The position numbers and the translations under genes were made by a program. 22,623 nucleotides of DNA. Origin: a virus. Where the stretch lies: IMG/VR virus record IMGVR_UViG_3300037099_000127, positions 1 to 22,623 of that record; one strand, 5' to 3'. Numbering within the stretch: position 1 is the stretch's first letter; the number at the start of each line of letters is the position of its first letter. The notes beneath the pieces are model-generated. The model saw only the letters and a list, made by a program, of their open reading frames with translations. It searched no databases and was not told the DNA's origin. Below, piece by piece: positions 6,159-16,413 of this stretch.

Positions 6159-6325
6159 AGCGAAGAATCTCCAAGAAGGTGTGCGAGCGGGTAATCCGCG
6201 CGGCACTTCGAGGAGAAGTCGTCAGCTATCCCAATAGCAAAACCATCCGCGCGGCGTCGCTGCGCATGCTCAAAGAATCGCGAAAGCAAAACCGCACACG
6301 TGAGGAAACATGTCAGACCAAGTAA
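6155..6325 (+). CDS. Small basic protein, 56 aa, GTG start
   Basis: The frame begins with GTG at 6155, overlapping the portal stop as GTGA, and runs 16 nt into the next gene. The product is strongly basic (MKRRISKKVCERVIRAALRGE; SLRMLKESRKQNRTREETCQTK) and probably mostly helical. It could bind nucleic acid, but no family is recognised. Its support is the start/stop coupling and the lack of another gene for this gap. Confidence 0.5.
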   Translation: MKRRISKKVCERVIRAALRGEVVSYPNSKTIRAASLRMLKESRKQNRTREETCQTK

Positions 6326-7467
6326 CCGCCGCAGCCGTTCCCACTCCCGTCGTTTCCGCCCCGACAACTGAGGCCGCTACCGTCCCAGGCACGCCCCTGC
6401 CGGCGCATCCAGAAGCGCCAGGAAAGATCGATCTCAAGGCATTCGTCGAGCAGCGCTACAATGAAAAGCACAAGGTCAACCGCGCGACTCCCGCGACAAC
6501 CGTGCAATCTCCCAAACCCACTCCGCCCACTGCACCGGCTCCGCTCCCTGCACCGGCCACCGCACTTGGGGATGCACTGGCAAAGGTCGAGCCGAAGCCT
6601 GTCGAACTTGCCAAGCCCGTCGAGACCGAGAAGAAAACATCAGAGCAAGACGAGATCGCCGCGCGGCTAGCACGACTTTCCGCCGCGAGTTCGGAGGCTG
6701 CTCAGCGCCGAAAACTCCGGGAGCGTGAGCTAGCCGCCGATGCCAAGTCAAAGGCCGCCGAGACAGCGCACGCGAAAGAGATCGAGCTGGCGAGAAAGTT
6801 GGAGGCGGCGCGGACCAAGGGAAGCAAGCTCGCCATCCTTGAGGCAGCCGGCTACACGCCAGATGAACTAGAAAAATCCGGCTTCGTGGTCGACCTGCTC
6901 GATGAGATGTCGAAGCGAACCGCCCCGCCAACCCTCACGGAAGCCGACGTCGAAAAGAAGATCGCCGAACGCTTGAAGGCCGCCGAGGACGAACGCAAGG
7001 CCGCCGAGGAAATCGCGAGGCAGCGTCAGGAGGCCAACAATCTTGTGGCCAAGGAAGAGTTCTATGGTGCTGTCCGTATCGAATACAAAGCCGGCGACTA
7101 TCCCGCCCTGAAGTCGGACAAGGTTACGCAAGGCCAGCTCGACGCTTTCTACCAGCAGCACTTGCGGGACAAGCCCGGCCAGATTCTCACGGCCAAGGAG
7201 CTACTCGACAAGGCGGAAGGCGCCATCCGCGCAACCCTCAAGGCCCAGAAGGAGCGCATTGAAAAGCTCGAAGAGCTGATCAACCCCAAGGACGACAAGA
7301 AGCCAACACCACCCGCGGCAGCGGTTCGCACCATCACGCCCTCCGTGACCTCCGATGCCGGTGACGCCATCAAGATCGAACCTGCCAAGCGCGAAAGCCT
7401 GCGCGACAAGGAGAAGCGACTCCGGGCAACGGTAGAAGCTCAATTTCAAGCCAGGCCCGCGAAATAG
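6310..7467 (+). CDS. Scaffold-like coiled-coil protein
   Basis: This 385-residue protein sits between portal and capsid genes, the usual place of the scaffold that directs capsid assembly and then leaves the head. The first 110 residues are low-complexity Pro, Ala and Thr, including APLPAPATA. They are followed by long charged helices rich in Lys, Glu and Ala (about 115-180 and 205-250), a short YTPDELEKSGF turn, another helix (290-330) and a basic C-terminus (KRESLRDKEKRLRATVEAQF). Scaffolds commonly end in a basic helical segment that binds coat protein. There is no protease motif, so proteolytic maturation is not indicated here. GAGG at 6302-6305 is a good ribosome-binding site. The assignment rests on position and composition. 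Confidence 0.7.
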   Translation: MSDQVTAAAVPTPVVSAPTTEAATVPGTPLPAHPEAPGKIDLKAFVEQRYNEKHKVNRATPATTVQSPKPTPPTAPAPLPAPATALGDALAKVEPKPVELAKPVETEKKTSEQDEIAARLARLSAASSEAAQRRKLRERELAADAKSKAAETAHAKEIELARKLEAARTKGSKLAILEAAGYTPDELEKSGFVVDLLDEMSKRTAPPTLTEADVEKKIAERLKAAEDERKAAEEIARQRQEANNLVAKEEFYGAVRIEYKAGDYPALKSDKVTQGQLDAFYQQHLRDKPGQILTAKELLDKAEGAIRATLKAQKERIEKLEELINPKDDKKPTPPAAAVRTITPSVTSDAGDAIKIEPAKRESLRDKEKRLRATVEAQFQARPAK

Positions 7468-7468
7468 G

Positions 7469-7499
7469 TTGACGTCCTAACGATTCTGTGAACTACTAA
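7469..7499 (+). promoter_or_regulatory. Weak candidate promoter for the capsid gene
   Basis: TTGACG (7469-7474) could be a -35 box, with TACTAA (7494-7499) as -10. The spacer is 19 bp, longer than ideal. It lies at the start of the only sizeable intergenic gap in the structural block, and capsid genes often have an extra promoter. The match is weak. Confidence 0.25.
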
Positions 7500-7551
7500 A
7501 GGCAACCGACGCCCATGTCGGCGCGAAATCCATAGATCCTGCGATTTTGGG

Positions 7552-7638
7552 GTCACCTGAATAAGAGGTCCGCAGCACAAGTGATGCTCGGACAAACCAC
7601 CGGGCCAGCGCGCGAGCGCTGCCCTTGCATCAGGTGAC
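7552..7638 (+). promoter_or_regulatory. Potential three-way-junction RNA sequestering the capsid gene's ribosome-binding site
   Basis: GTCACCTGA (7552-7560) is the exact reverse complement of TCAGGTGAC (7630-7638). The second arm contains AGGTGA (7632-7637), the Shine-Dalgarno sequence of the capsid gene at 7642. Two hairpins lie between the arms. The first pairs GTCCG (7568-7572) with CGGAC (7589-7593), then after bulged C7573 AGCA with TGCT, around a 7-nt loop. The second pairs GGG (7602-7604) with CCC (7622-7624), then after bulged C7605 CAGCGC with GCGCTG, capped by the GNRA-type loop GCGA (7612-7615). Each inner stem has nine pairs and one bulged C. If folded, the ribosome would be kept off until the outer stem opened. 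The regulatory role is inference from base pairing. Confidence 0.5.
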
Positions 7639-7641
7639 ATC

Positions 7642-8988
7642 ATGGGCGCTACTTTCACAGTTGGAGACCTCGGGGGAGTTTTCTCCCAGGTCATGGAGCA
7701 CCAGAATCGCGACATCGTCGACATCTGGACCCAGGCAATCGACCCTCTTCTGGCCGCTTTCGAGGCTCAATCGAGCAACGATGGTTTGGGCCGAGCCTTC
7801 ATCACCCGCGTTGAATACGACACGGGTGTCAGCGCGAACGCGCAGTACACCCTGGCGAACGATATCGCCACGTCTACCGACCTCGGGGCCGCCGCTCTCC
7901 GAGGCCGCTGGTCGACCAACGCAGCCAAGATCGAAGCCATTGCGATGTGGGATCGCGATTCGATGCTGGCCGCAGTCGGCGACGGTCCTGGCGAAGTTGT
8001 CGACATCGTCACCCGCGAGCGCAAGGCGAAGATCGCCTATGTTCGCCACCTGCTGTCCATCATGGCGGCCGAGCGTGGTTGGGGACGAATTTCAACGATC
8101 TCCGTAATCGCCTCCGGGCAAAACTACTTCACGGTGCCGCTGTCCGAGGTGAGCCGCTTCCGCATCGGCATGCGGGTCGTGTTCGGTGCCACCGAGGCCA
8201 CTGGGACTCTGCGCGGAACCGACGGAGCTGGCGATCAGTCCGGGTGGGGCAACGCCTGGACCGTGTCCGGCACCGTTCCGCAGACGGGCAACGTCGTGCT
8301 CGAAACTCGCTCCGCCGACGGTGCCACCAGTCCTTACGACACGGACGCGGTCCGCAACGCCGACACGGTCTTCATTCAGGGCTTCCGACAGAACACCGCG
8401 AGCCCCACCCCACAGTGCCCCGTCGGTATGCGGGGCTGGGTGGATCCGTCCGGCGTGTCCTCAGGTGAGACGTCCTTCATGGGTCTCGCCCGCCGAAACA
8501 TCTGGCAGCTCTGCGGGATCACCATGGACGCCTCCGCCGGGTCGCTCTCCATCGCCGACGCCCTCATCGAGGGCAACATGCTGGCCGAGCAGTACGACAC
8601 CGAGATCGACACCTGGATGGTGTCTGTCTATGACTACGCCACCTTGATCCGCGACAAGGAACGGGTCAAGCTGGTGAGCCTCAACATCGGCCCGTACAGC
8701 GTGGGATTCGATGGCGTCGAAGTGCTCGGAGGCAAGGGCAAGGTTCGCGTCACCCCGTCCAAGTACATCAGCCAAGGCATCTGCTGGGGCGGCCCGTTCA
8801 ACTCGGCGGAGTTCGGCCCCATGCTCAAGCACAACGGCGAGTTGGTCAACACCGACAACGCCGACGGCAACGAATACCTGCGCATGCCCACGTCGACGGC
8901 ATTCCAGCAGAGGCTGTTCTTCCGTGGCGCCATGGTCGTCCCGGGCCCCGGCAAGTTCGTCACCATCGCGAACCTGCCCACCACCTAG
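7642..8988 (+). CDS. Major capsid protein
   Basis: The 448-residue product follows the scaffold gene and is the best candidate for the coat protein. The N-terminus (VGDLGGVFSQVMEHQNRDIVDIWTQ) is helical. The middle has a long helix containing AKIAYVRHLLSIMAAERGWGRI (about 130-152), then beta-rich segments with an HK97-like alternation (YFTVPLSEVSRFRIGMRVVFG). The C-terminal half includes SLSIADALIEGNMLAEQYDTEIDTWMVS and a terminal strand segment (AFQQRLFFRGAMVVPGPGKFVTIANLP). It has its own structured leader and is followed by a terminator-like hairpin, as expected for a highly expressed gene. AGGTGA lies 4 nt before ATG; because it pairs with the distal part of the anti-Shine-Dalgarno sequence, this spacing is functional. 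The coat-protein call is strong; the exact fold is inferred. Confidence 0.82.
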   Translation: MGATFTVGDLGGVFSQVMEHQNRDIVDIWTQAIDPLLAAFEAQSSNDGLGRAFITRVEYDTGVSANAQYTLANDIATSTDLGAAALRGRWSTNAAKIEAIAMWDRDSMLAAVGDGPGEVVDIVTRERKAKIAYVRHLLSIMAAERGWGRISTISVIASGQNYFTVPLSEVSRFRIGMRVVFGATEATGTLRGTDGAGDQSGWGNAWTVSGTVPQTGNVVLETRSADGATSPYDTDAVRNADTVFIQGFRQNTASPTPQCPVGMRGWVDPSGVSSGETSFMGLARRNIWQLCGITMDASAGSLSIADALIEGNMLAEQYDTEIDTWMVSVYDYATLIRDKERVKLVSLNIGPYSVGFDGVEVLGGKGKVRVTPSKYISQGICWGGPFNSAEFGPMLKHNGELVNTDNADGNEYLRMPTSTAFQQRLFFRGAMVVPGPGKFVTIANLPTT

Positions 8989-13600: not shown

Positions 13601-14461
13601 GTCATTTCCGGGACGGGCCCCGACGGCATGGGATCGGGCAATTACATCGTGCAGACCTTGAGCACCAAGGCGGGATGCTCGAACCCGAAGAGCCTCATCA
13701 ACGGGGCCGATGGGTGCTATTTCCAGGACTCGCAGACGGGGCGCCTTATGCTACTCAATGCCTCGCTGCAAGTTGCGGAAGCGGCTCCGGGCGCATTCGA
13801 CATCACGGCGGGAACGGACCCGTATACAGTGAACCCAATCACGTGCGCGTTGCACGTGGAACAAAAGCGTCAGATGTGGTTCTATGTCGGCGGAGACGCG
13901 AGCACGATCATCGTGTTGGACTACAAGCACCGAGGAGAGTCTTGCCCCGCTGGAAGCGTCTACACCTGGGACGTGTCCGCGTTGGGAGCACCGTGTGGAA
14001 TGGCCATCGTTCACAACATTCCGACTCTGATCTTTACGGACGGAAGCGTTGCTGAGCAGACAGCGGCGCAATGCTATGACCAGACGGTGAGTTCCGTGAA
14101 GCATGCGATCTTGCAGTCGATGCAGACGTCAGACATCAATCCGCTTGGGTTGCAACGCCAATTCAACCTTTCGAGGATTCAGTTCCTTGGCGAGTTCCAA
14201 GACCAGAGCACGATCACGCTGACGACTTATCCGGACTTTTCGGGCTTTGGCAGCACGAGCGGCCCAGTTAACTTGACCACGGGGCCGGCTCAATTCGTCA
14301 CGAGACCGCCGAATGCTATGCGAATTCAGTCGATTCGCTTTCAGGTGGACGAGGGAGTTTATGCATCCATCTATGGCCGAGGTTTCAAGTTCATTGGCTT
14401 TGCGCTTGAAGTACAGGATTGCGGAAAGATCGCAAGCCTTAGCGTTGGGAGGGTCATCTAA
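10673..14461 (+). CDS. Tail nozzle-like / DNA stabilisation protein, 1262 aa
   Basis: This is the largest gene of the window. The N-terminus (VKLGDLIVAKNCQQVKGGEFSKRDGFTAI) and C-terminal third (from about residue 920: ARAVYIWKDRAFCADGNRIWVSQ; GDILGICHTDWNYLAFFKRDAIAVISG; GADGCYFQDSQTGRLMLLN; ending MRIQSIRFQVDEGVYASIYGRGFKFIGFALEV) resemble the beta-propeller layout of P22 gp10 and other podovirus nozzle proteins. The end matches the 'I...RR.IGFKL.V' pattern. The family is usually about 470-800 residues, so this protein carries several hundred extra central residues of beta-rich sequence with no motif I recognise. Bases 12780-13260 are poorer in GC than the flanks. It should form the tail tip below the adaptor. 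Start TAATG; the stop overlaps the next ATG by one base. Confidence 0.65.
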   Translation: MALAKQSITLFYGDTDQDTGRKSVKLGDLIVAKNCQQVKGGEFSKRDGFTAIGQGYDYQSGGITPDSILSPDGTQVITRDAVTDATYVRGTSNTSNQYQGHATRFVTQVNTRFPALGSGQQESPMAKQSGNYVAWLIDAGHFVIAQVNPDTAADAFSPTGDWETIIQQTAPISVAAISGNVSLQIKSFAIIDAPVFDAYNLWFCWVDWSNQIFAYRVPHSNLSSGSFHVTFQLVNSGTLYNAFTSVTMGMVDANNLAIAACGVQYDTSAAFVAPGQAGSAATGFRAASGESCGASNYAKSISSHFYLALSGGPASSPVSYLGTQGKAVAACCTIASVAGGFQTSSGTWYYAFVGASNAGDWAIILQSVDAATLEVTTYVDSFPAVAPDEYGSPTDFDATLFARYGWFYNGALAAKETTTGIEIAVTSIPYYVTTNGTFRTWNPDYLATQCFAYTTTIASWSRKWIALGASVAQGWIRLRDYSNTGAHALESGNDYLITQWEDKTALQPSFHVREWDTGAILAQLAYGQAAHIGGTATRDLQVQSYCSDLHQPMVNGVLYTAEGAPLNIYVGLQSANQNACVDIATVQLQIWDQRTNAPPLWQNPVAWQGYSLAPGPIPTICNGFQKVREAGPLVYPSMPEAYITNDVRCFGAFNTAGVYDMSMWTKLSGIDVYQRNANGAFFGYRPSDGPMNPTLPMDTMDQFAITEGYPTDGIYTLVNVGSISTQAVIQRSVNANTSELLFGITFHVVGPGGSNVGTYFQEADGVGTIDVTQPNFAPVTSGYVAPTGDTSVAVVYRLTSSDGTIWRSSPYILPNSLVWESMAISRLRVPTLRHLMEGTAAEIEIYIGQVDLQLVTVIVNDSTVDWIDQILAGPTASYPTISAAVTAAGPGELLYTTGGALENAPPPNARAVYIWKDRAFCADGNRIWVSQEFADGIGIQWNDITSIEWGEGTGDILGICHTDWNYLAFFKRDAIAVISGTGPDGMGSGNYIVQTLSTKAGCSNPKSLINGADGCYFQDSQTGRLMLLNASLQVAEAAPGAFDITAGTDPYTVNPITCALHVEQKRQMWFYVGGDASTIIVLDYKHRGESCPAGSVYTWDVSALGAPCGMAIVHNIPTLIFTDGSVAEQTAAQCYDQTVSSVKHAILQSMQTSDINPLGLQRQFNLSRIQFLGEFQDQSTITLTTYPDFSGFGSTSGPVNLTTGPAQFVTRPPNAMRIQSIRFQVDEGVYASIYGRGFKFIGFALEVQDCGKIASLSVGRVI

Positions 14462-16413
14462 TGCCAGGACCAATCATAGGATACGATCCCAACGGTGTTC
14501 CCATCTACGGACCAGATCCGTTGGCGGCGGCGGCGTCGGGTGGGTCCAGTTCAACTGCGCCTACTGCATTTAATCCCGCTGGGCAGGGAGCGAACCCATA
14601 TGCCACCCCAACGGCGACCCCGGGGAGTGCACCCCTTAACGTGCAAGGAACGCAGACTGCAACCGGACAGACTCCAACCGGACAGACTCCAATAGTCCAG
14701 GCTCAGGGCGACGGAACCAACATATTTGGCTCGGTGCTTAGCGGATTGACAGGCGGCACCGCGCAATCCGGTCCCGGTGGCCAGTATGCTGGAAACGCAA
14801 ACGGTGTTATCGGTCAGGCAGAAAATACGCTAGCGAGCCTTCCGGGGGGCAGCATTTTCCAGGGGCTTGGTCTTGCGCCTCAAAATCAGAGTTGGAATCC
14901 ATCGAACGTCAACCCGCAGATCTCACAATCCGAGCAAACTTACGGCGCCGCCATGACGGGCGCCACCGCAGCGGCGGCTGGTCCGAAATACAACACCGTC
15001 GGGACGGGGCTACAAACGATCACCCCCCAGCAGGTAGGAAACCTGCCCACGGTAGCACCGACAACCACCGTCGATGCCGGACAGAATATCACCGGCACAA
15101 ATGCCACGGATTTGAGAGCCCAGCAATTGGCGCAGGCACAGACAGCCGCCAATAGCCCTAGCAGCGCGGCTGCTCAGATGCGCGCGGCAGAGGGGCAGAT
15201 CGAAAACCAGCAAGCAGGACAGGCGGCGCAAGCCCGCGGAGTTGACCGTGCCGGGGCCCGCCGGGCCGCCATGCTGGCAACCGGGACGCAGGAACAGGGC
15301 GCCGCTAGCACCACGGCGGCGCTCGCGGCACAGGAGCAAGCGGCGAAGCAGCAGGCCTACACGGGCGCCCTTGCGGGTGTGCGCGCCGGCGACGTCTCGA
15401 CTGCCCAAGCGGGCATGCAGGCCCAGCAGGCTAACCAACAGGCAGGCCTGACCGCGCAGCAGGCCAACTTGCAAGCCGGGCTTACGGCTCAGGAGGCCAA
15501 CCAGAGTGCGGGCATCCAGGCAGGGAATCTCAACAATCAGGCGCTTCTGACGGCTCAGCAAGCCAACCAGGGGGCCGCCATCAATGCCTACACGGCACAG
15601 ATGGGCGCGACCAACAATTTTCTTGGCACCGCGAATCAGTCCACCGGAGCGGGCAACCAGGCTAACAACACCGTGGCGCAATATCAGGCCAACTGGGATA
15701 AGACCAAGCAAGCGAGCATCCAGGGCGGCACGAGCCAGCTGATGAGTTCAGCCGGCGGAATCCTTTCGGGCATCGGGCTGTCTGACGAAAAAACCAAGGC
15801 TGAAATCGAACCCATTGGATCGCCATCCATCGGCGGGGGCTACTCGGATCAGTACAGCCAAATGCTCGGCAGCGCCTATGGGACGTCGTCGAATCCTGAG
15901 AAGTTCTCGGATCCGTATCTGACCGCAGCGCCAACCCCGCAGACCAATTTCCTCGCGCCTTCACAGTTCGGCATCGTGCCAGACAATCCGAAGCCAAGCT
16001 CGTCGTCTCAAAGCGGTGGGGGCGGCATGCTCGGAGGCGGAGGGGGCGGGGAAGGAGGGGGGCTCGGAGACATGCTCTCGGATATATTCGCCAAGGAGGA
16101 AGTCAACCGGCTTGGCAAGGGCGACCTGGCGAATTGGGCCGAGTCGGTGCCCACGGCGTCGTTTCGCTACAAGCCGGGTGCCCCGGATACTGACGGCGGA
16201 GCTCAATACCACGTCGGCACCGTGGCCCAAGGACTGGAGCGCACGGGCGCGCTCGGGAAGCTACTCACGCACCAGCGCCCCGACGGGCTCAAGGAGGTCG
16301 AATACGGACCCCTCGGGCTCATGGTGGGCAAAGGAGCGCTAGAACGCGCGAACGAGGCGAAGCGCGTCGCCCTGGAGGCATACGCATTGGCAACCAAGAA
16401 GGGAGTGCGCTAG
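14461..16413 (+). CDS. Ejection-type virion protein with hendecad repeats and S74-like C-terminus, 650 aa
   Basis: This protein is rich in Gln, Ala, Gly and Thr. Residues 1-215 are low-complexity. Residues 215-420 form an Ala/Gln/Asn helix with five 11-residue repeats at 321-375 (AQQANQQAGLT type). Residues 441-449 read SDEKTKAEI, matching the start of the peptidase-S74 intramolecular chaperone domain (SD.RLK..I), with a Ser441/Lys446 pair at the spacing of the self-cleavage dyad. Residues 452-555 are an atypical Gly/Ser/Pro linker. Residues 565-630 (SFRYKPGAPD; YHVGTVAQGLERTG; VEYGPLGLMVGKGALE) match the rest of an S74-like domain. Position after the nozzle gene suggests an ejected internal protein; a fibre-like tail protein is the alternative. 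Self-cleavage is inferred. Confidence 0.6.
   Translation: MPGPIIGYDPNGVPIYGPDPLAAAASGGSSSTAPTAFNPAGQGANPYATPTATPGSAPLNVQGTQTATGQTPTGQTPIVQAQGDGTNIFGSVLSGLTGGTAQSGPGGQYAGNANGVIGQAENTLASLPGGSIFQGLGLAPQNQSWNPSNVNPQISQSEQTYGAAMTGATAAAAGPKYNTVGTGLQTITPQQVGNLPTVAPTTTVDAGQNITGTNATDLRAQQLAQAQTAANSPSSAAAQMRAAEGQIENQQAGQAAQARGVDRAGARRAAMLATGTQEQGAASTTAALAAQEQAAKQQAYTGALAGVRAGDVSTAQAGMQAQQANQQAGLTAQQANLQAGLTAQEANQSAGIQAGNLNNQALLTAQQANQGAAINAYTAQMGATNNFLGTANQSTGAGNQANNTVAQYQANWDKTKQASIQGGTSQLMSSAGGILSGIGLSDEKTKAEIEPIGSPSIGGGYSDQYSQMLGSAYGTSSNPEKFSDPYLTAAPTPQTNFLAPSQFGIVPDNPKPSSSSQSGGGGMLGGGGGGEGGGLGDMLSDIFAKEEVNRLGKGDLANWAESVPTASFRYKPGAPDTDGGAQYHVGTVAQGLERTGALGKLLTHQRPDGLKEVEYGPLGLMVGKGALERANEAKRVALEAYALATKKGVR
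14660..14689 (+). repeat. Perfect 15-bp tandem duplication inside the 650-aa gene
   Basis: CAACCGGACAGACTC occurs twice back to back (14660-14674 and 14675-14689) and encodes a repeated TGQTP pentapeptide in the low-complexity N-terminal part. The copies are identical at DNA level, so the duplication is recent or kept identical. It does not shift the frame. Confidence 0.85.
15421..15585 (+). repeat. Five degenerate 33-bp repeats encoding hendecads
   Basis: Five successive 33-bp units encode AQQANQQAGLT, AQQANLQAGLT, AQEANQSAGIQ, AGNLNNQALLT and AQQANQGAAIN (residues 321-375 of the 650-aa protein). The 11-residue period is that of a right-handed or nearly straight coiled coil (hendecad), not the usual heptad. 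The DNA copies differ by synonymous and other changes, so the repeat is old. Confidence 0.8.

Follow-up and report, generated by a model that had tools for sequence, protein, structure and literature searches.

The Shine-Dalgarno (SD) sequence of the major capsid gene in the phage DNA analyzed here is predicted to be hidden in the closing stem of an RNA leader, and an SD-hiding stem occupies the equivalent position in another phage, whose capsid protein is 30 % identical. The DNA is a stretch of 22,623 nucleotides (IMGVR_UViG_3300037099_000127, positions 1 to 22,623), referred to below as the window. The folding models and the comparison of the two phages suggest that the SD-hiding leader is real and probably functional, and that it probably exerts control on the timing or the amount of capsid protein. 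The reading favoured here, with some reserve, is that of a conserved, default-closed, cis-acting translational gate on the capsid gene.

The capsid gene and its leader

The major capsid protein gene (7642-8988, + strand, 448 amino acids) is located after the terminase, portal and scaffold-like genes. Its ortholog in the distant relative IMGVR_UViG_3300021440_000031 (G001), sharing 30-33 % identity, matches PHROG 14242 'major head protein' (E 3.8e-7) and, weakly, the Pfam family SU10_MCP, which supports the capsid assignment of the window gene. Structure prediction for the capsid protein was of low confidence (pLDDT 38) and was set aside. The scaffold-like gene (6310-7467, + strand) lies between portal and capsid, encodes 385 amino acids rich in Ala, Lys and Glu, and has no family match; its stop codon is at 7465-7467. 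The intergenic leader between the two genes occupies 174 nt (7468-7641, + strand). The corresponding gap measures 510 nt in G001, compared to 15-33 nt in more distant relatives, which have no such leader.

A perfect outer stem around the capsid SD had been described in an earlier note on this DNA, and this was borne out. The 5' arm at 7552-7560 of the + strand (GTCACCTGA), an anti-SD sequence, is the perfect reverse complement of 7630-7638 (TCAGGTGAC), with 69 nt enclosed and the ATG at 7642. The 3' arm is part of a ribosome-binding 17-mer, ATCAGGTGACATCATGG (7629-7645, + strand), which also contains the SD AGGTGA (7632-7637) and the start codon (7642-7644). The two inner hairpins reported earlier were likewise found, largely as claimed, in the minimum free energy fold: hairpin 1 at 7568-7593 (+ strand; GUCCG-C-AGCAC.../UGCU-CGGAC) and hairpin 2 at 7601-7624 (+ strand; GGG-C-CAGCGC-GCGA-GCGCUG-CCC), the latter with a 5' bulge and a GCGA tetraloop; the position of the bulge is ambiguous by one. 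Folded alone, the 87 nt from 7552 to 7638 reached -42.4 kcal/mol, compared to -26.2 +/- 3.3 kcal/mol for dinucleotide shuffles (z -4.85, with 0 of 200 shuffles as good). Folded in its sequence context, the same stretch gave a z of -3.30 against shuffles, and the outer stem pairing persisted in longer contexts. The predicted pairing of the SD in the stem is at least 0.99.

When the whole leader is folded, the start codon is paired as well, a feature absent from the earlier note: CGCCCATG (7510-7517, + strand) is predicted to form 8 bp with CATGGGCG (7640-7647). A counterpart of this strength was not seen in G001. For the anti-SD arm, another possible partner in the scaffold coding region (7347-7369) was considered and rejected, the SD stem being preferred in the full fold. 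No second anti-SD arm was identified in the window. A search of the leader against Rfam gave no relevant match at E values up to 5 and none at the gathering score.

Evidence from the window alone

It had been stated that a stem of this kind is unlikely to be chance. For the window by itself this is too strong, as a stem of at least 9 bp over the SD occurred in 0.7 % of shuffled leaders; the window has about 15 genes. Partners of at least 9 bp are rare at other starts, being present at 2 of the 162 sites in the window that resemble an SD plus start codon, the capsid site included. The window is GC-rich, and about three other places on its + strand have folds that are no weaker once their GC content is taken into account. 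Among 92 gene starts of the window and related phages, the predicted cost of opening the ribosome-binding site ranked 7th for the window capsid gene and 17th for that of G001, which is high and not unique. The evidence for the stem from the window alone is modest to moderate, and the case is strengthened by the SD-hiding stem at the same gene in the distant relative.

An SD-hiding stem in a distant relative

Two relatives bearing such a leader were retrieved. The twin IMGVR_UViG_3300037108_000025 is near-identical to the window and its leader is the same letter for letter, hence uninformative. G001, retrieved with a degenerate terminase pattern, is 52 % identical to the window in the terminase, 30-33 % in the capsid and 28 % in the portal protein. 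Protein and DNA searches for the capsid among isolate phages and plasmids found no relatives, nor were there any among 50,697 phage records or among genome contigs searched by capsid and terminase. A terminase alignment scan yielded no further relatives, and a pattern of the exact arms plus ATG, searched in viral contigs, returned only unrelated stretches besides the twin. The comparison covers two independent leaders (window and G001), which are all that the collections searched contained, and the lineage is represented here by two diverged types only.

Directly before its capsid start G001 carries TGTTACCTGATT, 59 nt and AATCAGGTGACA, forming a 12-bp stem with one G-U pair that hides the SD. 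This stem, tested after that of the window, has a shuffle P of 1.5e-4, and the fold alone a z of -4.01. The part homologous to the 9 bp of the window encloses 63 nt in G001 compared to 69 nt in the window. The capsid ribosome-binding 17-mer is identical in both phages, whereas six other orthologous ribosome-binding sites share 2-14 of 20 bases, none of them being identical over such a run. The 5' arm of the window aligns with GTTACCTGA in G001, where a single C-to-U change yields a G-U pair. Thus, 8 of the 9 outer-stem pairs are invariant and one changes from C-G to U-G; none is changed on both sides (n = 2, with identical SD arms), because the SD arm is invariant. A spacing match between the window and the upstream arm of G001 (TCACCTG-9-TCCGC) was dropped as the homologous register, since GTYACCTGAWTWAGMGG aligns better. 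Outside the arms the similarity between the two leaders is not significant (local alignment, P 0.07-0.21).

G001 harbours a second anti-SD arm, TCACCTG, which is mutually exclusive with the long arm and gives a near-isoenergetic alternative fold. In the model the SD pairing probability is about 1 in both phages; to free the SD even in part, the anti-SD arm has to be blocked, and in G001 both arms. The competing arms are located at 2586-2592 and 2609-2620 of the reverse complement of L054, the second sitting in the loop of the hairpin that is formed when the first pairs. The tRNA-Asn gene that G001 carries between scaffold and capsid contains CAGGTGAT (2361-2368 of the same strand), a sequence complementary to that of the first anti-SD arm, ATCACCTG; this may be chance.

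Conservation concerns the SD-hiding outer stem. The three-way junction, which the earlier note had taken as the unit, is not conserved: the favoured fold of G001 has a single long inner branch, although a near-isoenergetic alternative is a junction. Hairpin 1 has no counterpart in the favoured fold, and an inner hairpin of G001 (AGCGG UA GAGC GAGU GCUC CCGCU) has a shape like that of hairpin 2. The junction is incidental or lineage-specific.

The ribosome-binding sequence does not in itself bring along an anti-SD arm. A matched control of 17 unrelated contigs carrying the 16-mer ATCAGGTGACATCATG showed at most 8 pairs (one of them G-U), mostly 0-6, and 9 or more pairs in 0 of 17; the arm is therefore not an automatic accompaniment of this site. 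That complementary arms came to stand at the start in a GC-rich phage by chance, with no regulatory role, is an unlikely explanation. It draws on the frequency of such stems in shuffles relative to the number of genes, on the equally strong folds elsewhere in the window and on an opening cost that ranks no higher than 7th of 92 starts; against it stand the longer stem at the same gene in G001 and the lack of the stem at the matched unrelated sites.

The proposed translational gate and its alternatives

In the proposed mechanism the anti-SD arm upstream of the start codon would pair with the capsid SD and so shut ribosome access by default, and the closed stem would uncouple capsid translation from the upstream scaffold gene. 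Translation of the capsid gene would then require the stem to open transiently or a factor to favour the open form, be it an RNA-binding protein of phage or host origin or strand exchange. On the folding models, the stem would form in the cell, capsid translation would be lowered or timed by it, and some factor would open it. Within this reading a regulated gate can be put forward tentatively, and a static or kinetic attenuator is a weaker candidate. The capsid protein is normally the most abundant protein of the virion, and a default-closed start is odd for such a protein. Also speaking against a gate is that there are two independent leaders only and that their inner architecture differs.

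Two ways of opening the stem suggested earlier have lost ground. Melting by translation of the scaffold gene is effectively excluded, because scaffold translation ends 84 nt before the 5' arm of the window, and in G001 more than 400 nt before it, with the tRNA-Asn gene in between. A temperature switch is unlikely, since in a purely thermodynamic model no SD base exceeds an unpaired probability of 0.10 at temperatures up to 70 °C. A known riboswitch is also disfavoured, no known RNA family having matched, and the lack of conservation of the inner parts argues against a ligand pocket.

A leader peptide might open the stem instead. In this scenario a short ORF, starting at GTG 7581 or ATG 7584 and ending at the TGA at 7635-7637 within the SD, would be translated through the stem, and the ribosomes leaving it would be passed on to the capsid start, 4 nt further on. 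No stop codon interrupts this frame before the TGA within the SD, and the unpaired junction offers an SD-like AAGAGG at about 7563-7568; coupling by overlap of a stop codon and an SD is common in phages. However, the spacing from AAGAGG to the start is poor, and a stop in AGG TGA is inherent in the SD sequence. The same frame in G001 permits only an 11-codon GTG ORF with no clear SD, the longer leader ORF of that phage being in another frame, and no leader ORF conserved between window and G001 was found. Such coupling is rated slightly below chance as an explanation.

It is improbable that the stacked stems serve, as in the leaders of T7 and lambda, as an RNA processing or stability element, either an RNase III site or a 5'-protective structure, in which pairing of the SD would be incidental or the SD pairing would be cleaved off. 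The outer stem and a hairpin could stack as a helix of about 20 bp, and a tRNA-Asn gene lies immediately upstream in G001, so that the transcript of this phage is probably cut at that point. However, it is specifically the SD complementarity that is conserved and not the inner helices, and cleavage within the outer stem would harm the SD. A DNA-level site, with TCACCTGA and TCAGGTGA as near-palindromic halves for a repressor or another DNA-binding protein, has very little probability: both arms have the form TCA-NN-TGA, but their central CC/GG are complementary and not identical, as needed for an RNA stem and not for a DNA operator, and the long arm of G001 (TTACCTGA) deviates from the TCA half-site while still pairing.

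Comparison with known systems

The leader is ordinary in kind, as an SD-sequestering structure, and unusual in its place at a capsid gene. In the lambda cIII mRNA leader, as summarized in an article citing the original work, mutually exclusive folds set access to the ribosome-binding site and act as an RNA thermometer (PMC4166951, citing Altuvia 1989). The two exclusive anti-SD arms of G001 resemble these alternative folds. However, one of the cIII folds has the ribosome-binding site open, while both G001 folds, which are similar in energy, hide the SD; moreover, no temperature response is predicted here and the gene is a capsid gene. Leader structures also control translation in phage RNA thermometers such as SPbeta blyA and a candidate sigma70 thermometer, few of which are known in phage genomes (PMC11182007). 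The stem described here differs in being, according to the model, too stable for melting in the physiological range. Translational riboswitches with the SD in their P1 stem are similar to the window leader in having a three-way junction with a closing stem that contains the SD, but differ in that no relevant Rfam match was obtained and in that the junction and inner hairpins are not kept between window and G001.

In T7, gene 10 (capsid) has its own phage promoter (phi10) after the scaffold gene, and in P22 scaffold autoregulation acts on the scaffold gene itself. The likeness to these phages lies in a capsid expressed apart from the scaffold, or in post-transcriptional control of structural genes; the difference from T7 is the dedicated phage promoter used there. 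A single-subunit RNA polymerase was not found in G001 or the twin, in a search whose control was blank and which is therefore weak. No site passed in a scan for sigma-70 promoters. In both phages the sequence GTTGACG, resembling a -35 box, closely follows the stop codon of the scaffold gene (window 7468-7474; reverse complement of L054, 2186-2192), and a dedicated capsid promoter at this site is possible.

A search of the open-licence literature found no described capsid leader of the SD-hiding type; if the present reading is true, a capsid-specific, default-closed switch would be a form of control not found described in that search. In tailed DNA phages, capsid and scaffold proteins have to be made in the right proportion and at the right time, and a conserved closed capsid start would be a means of achieving this post-transcriptionally. 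The two diverged natural versions, which share the ribosome-binding 17-mer and differ in their locks, form a compact, testable RNA. It is a speculative further step to suppose that this uncultured tailed-phage lineage possesses a default-closed capsid switch with interchangeable anti-SD arms that mimic the 3' end of 16S rRNA and that would be opened by a phage or host factor during infection.

Several minor observations concern the remainder of these genomes. The window is devoid of tRNA genes, and its structural genes match hardly any Pfam or PHROG family. In G001 the region between the scaffold-like and capsid genes (reverse complement of L054, 2321-2498) holds tRNA-Asn(GTT) and a second tRNA-like match (29.3 bits, gathering score 29). 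The C-terminal part of the product of 14461-16413 in the window matches Peptidase_S74, an endosialidase-type chaperone (E 7.9e-5). Upstream of the terminase, 1273-1779 shows a weak match to GNAT acetyltransferases (E 0.001, under the curated cut-off), and in L056 and L057 the terminase is likewise preceded by ORFs that resemble it by eye.
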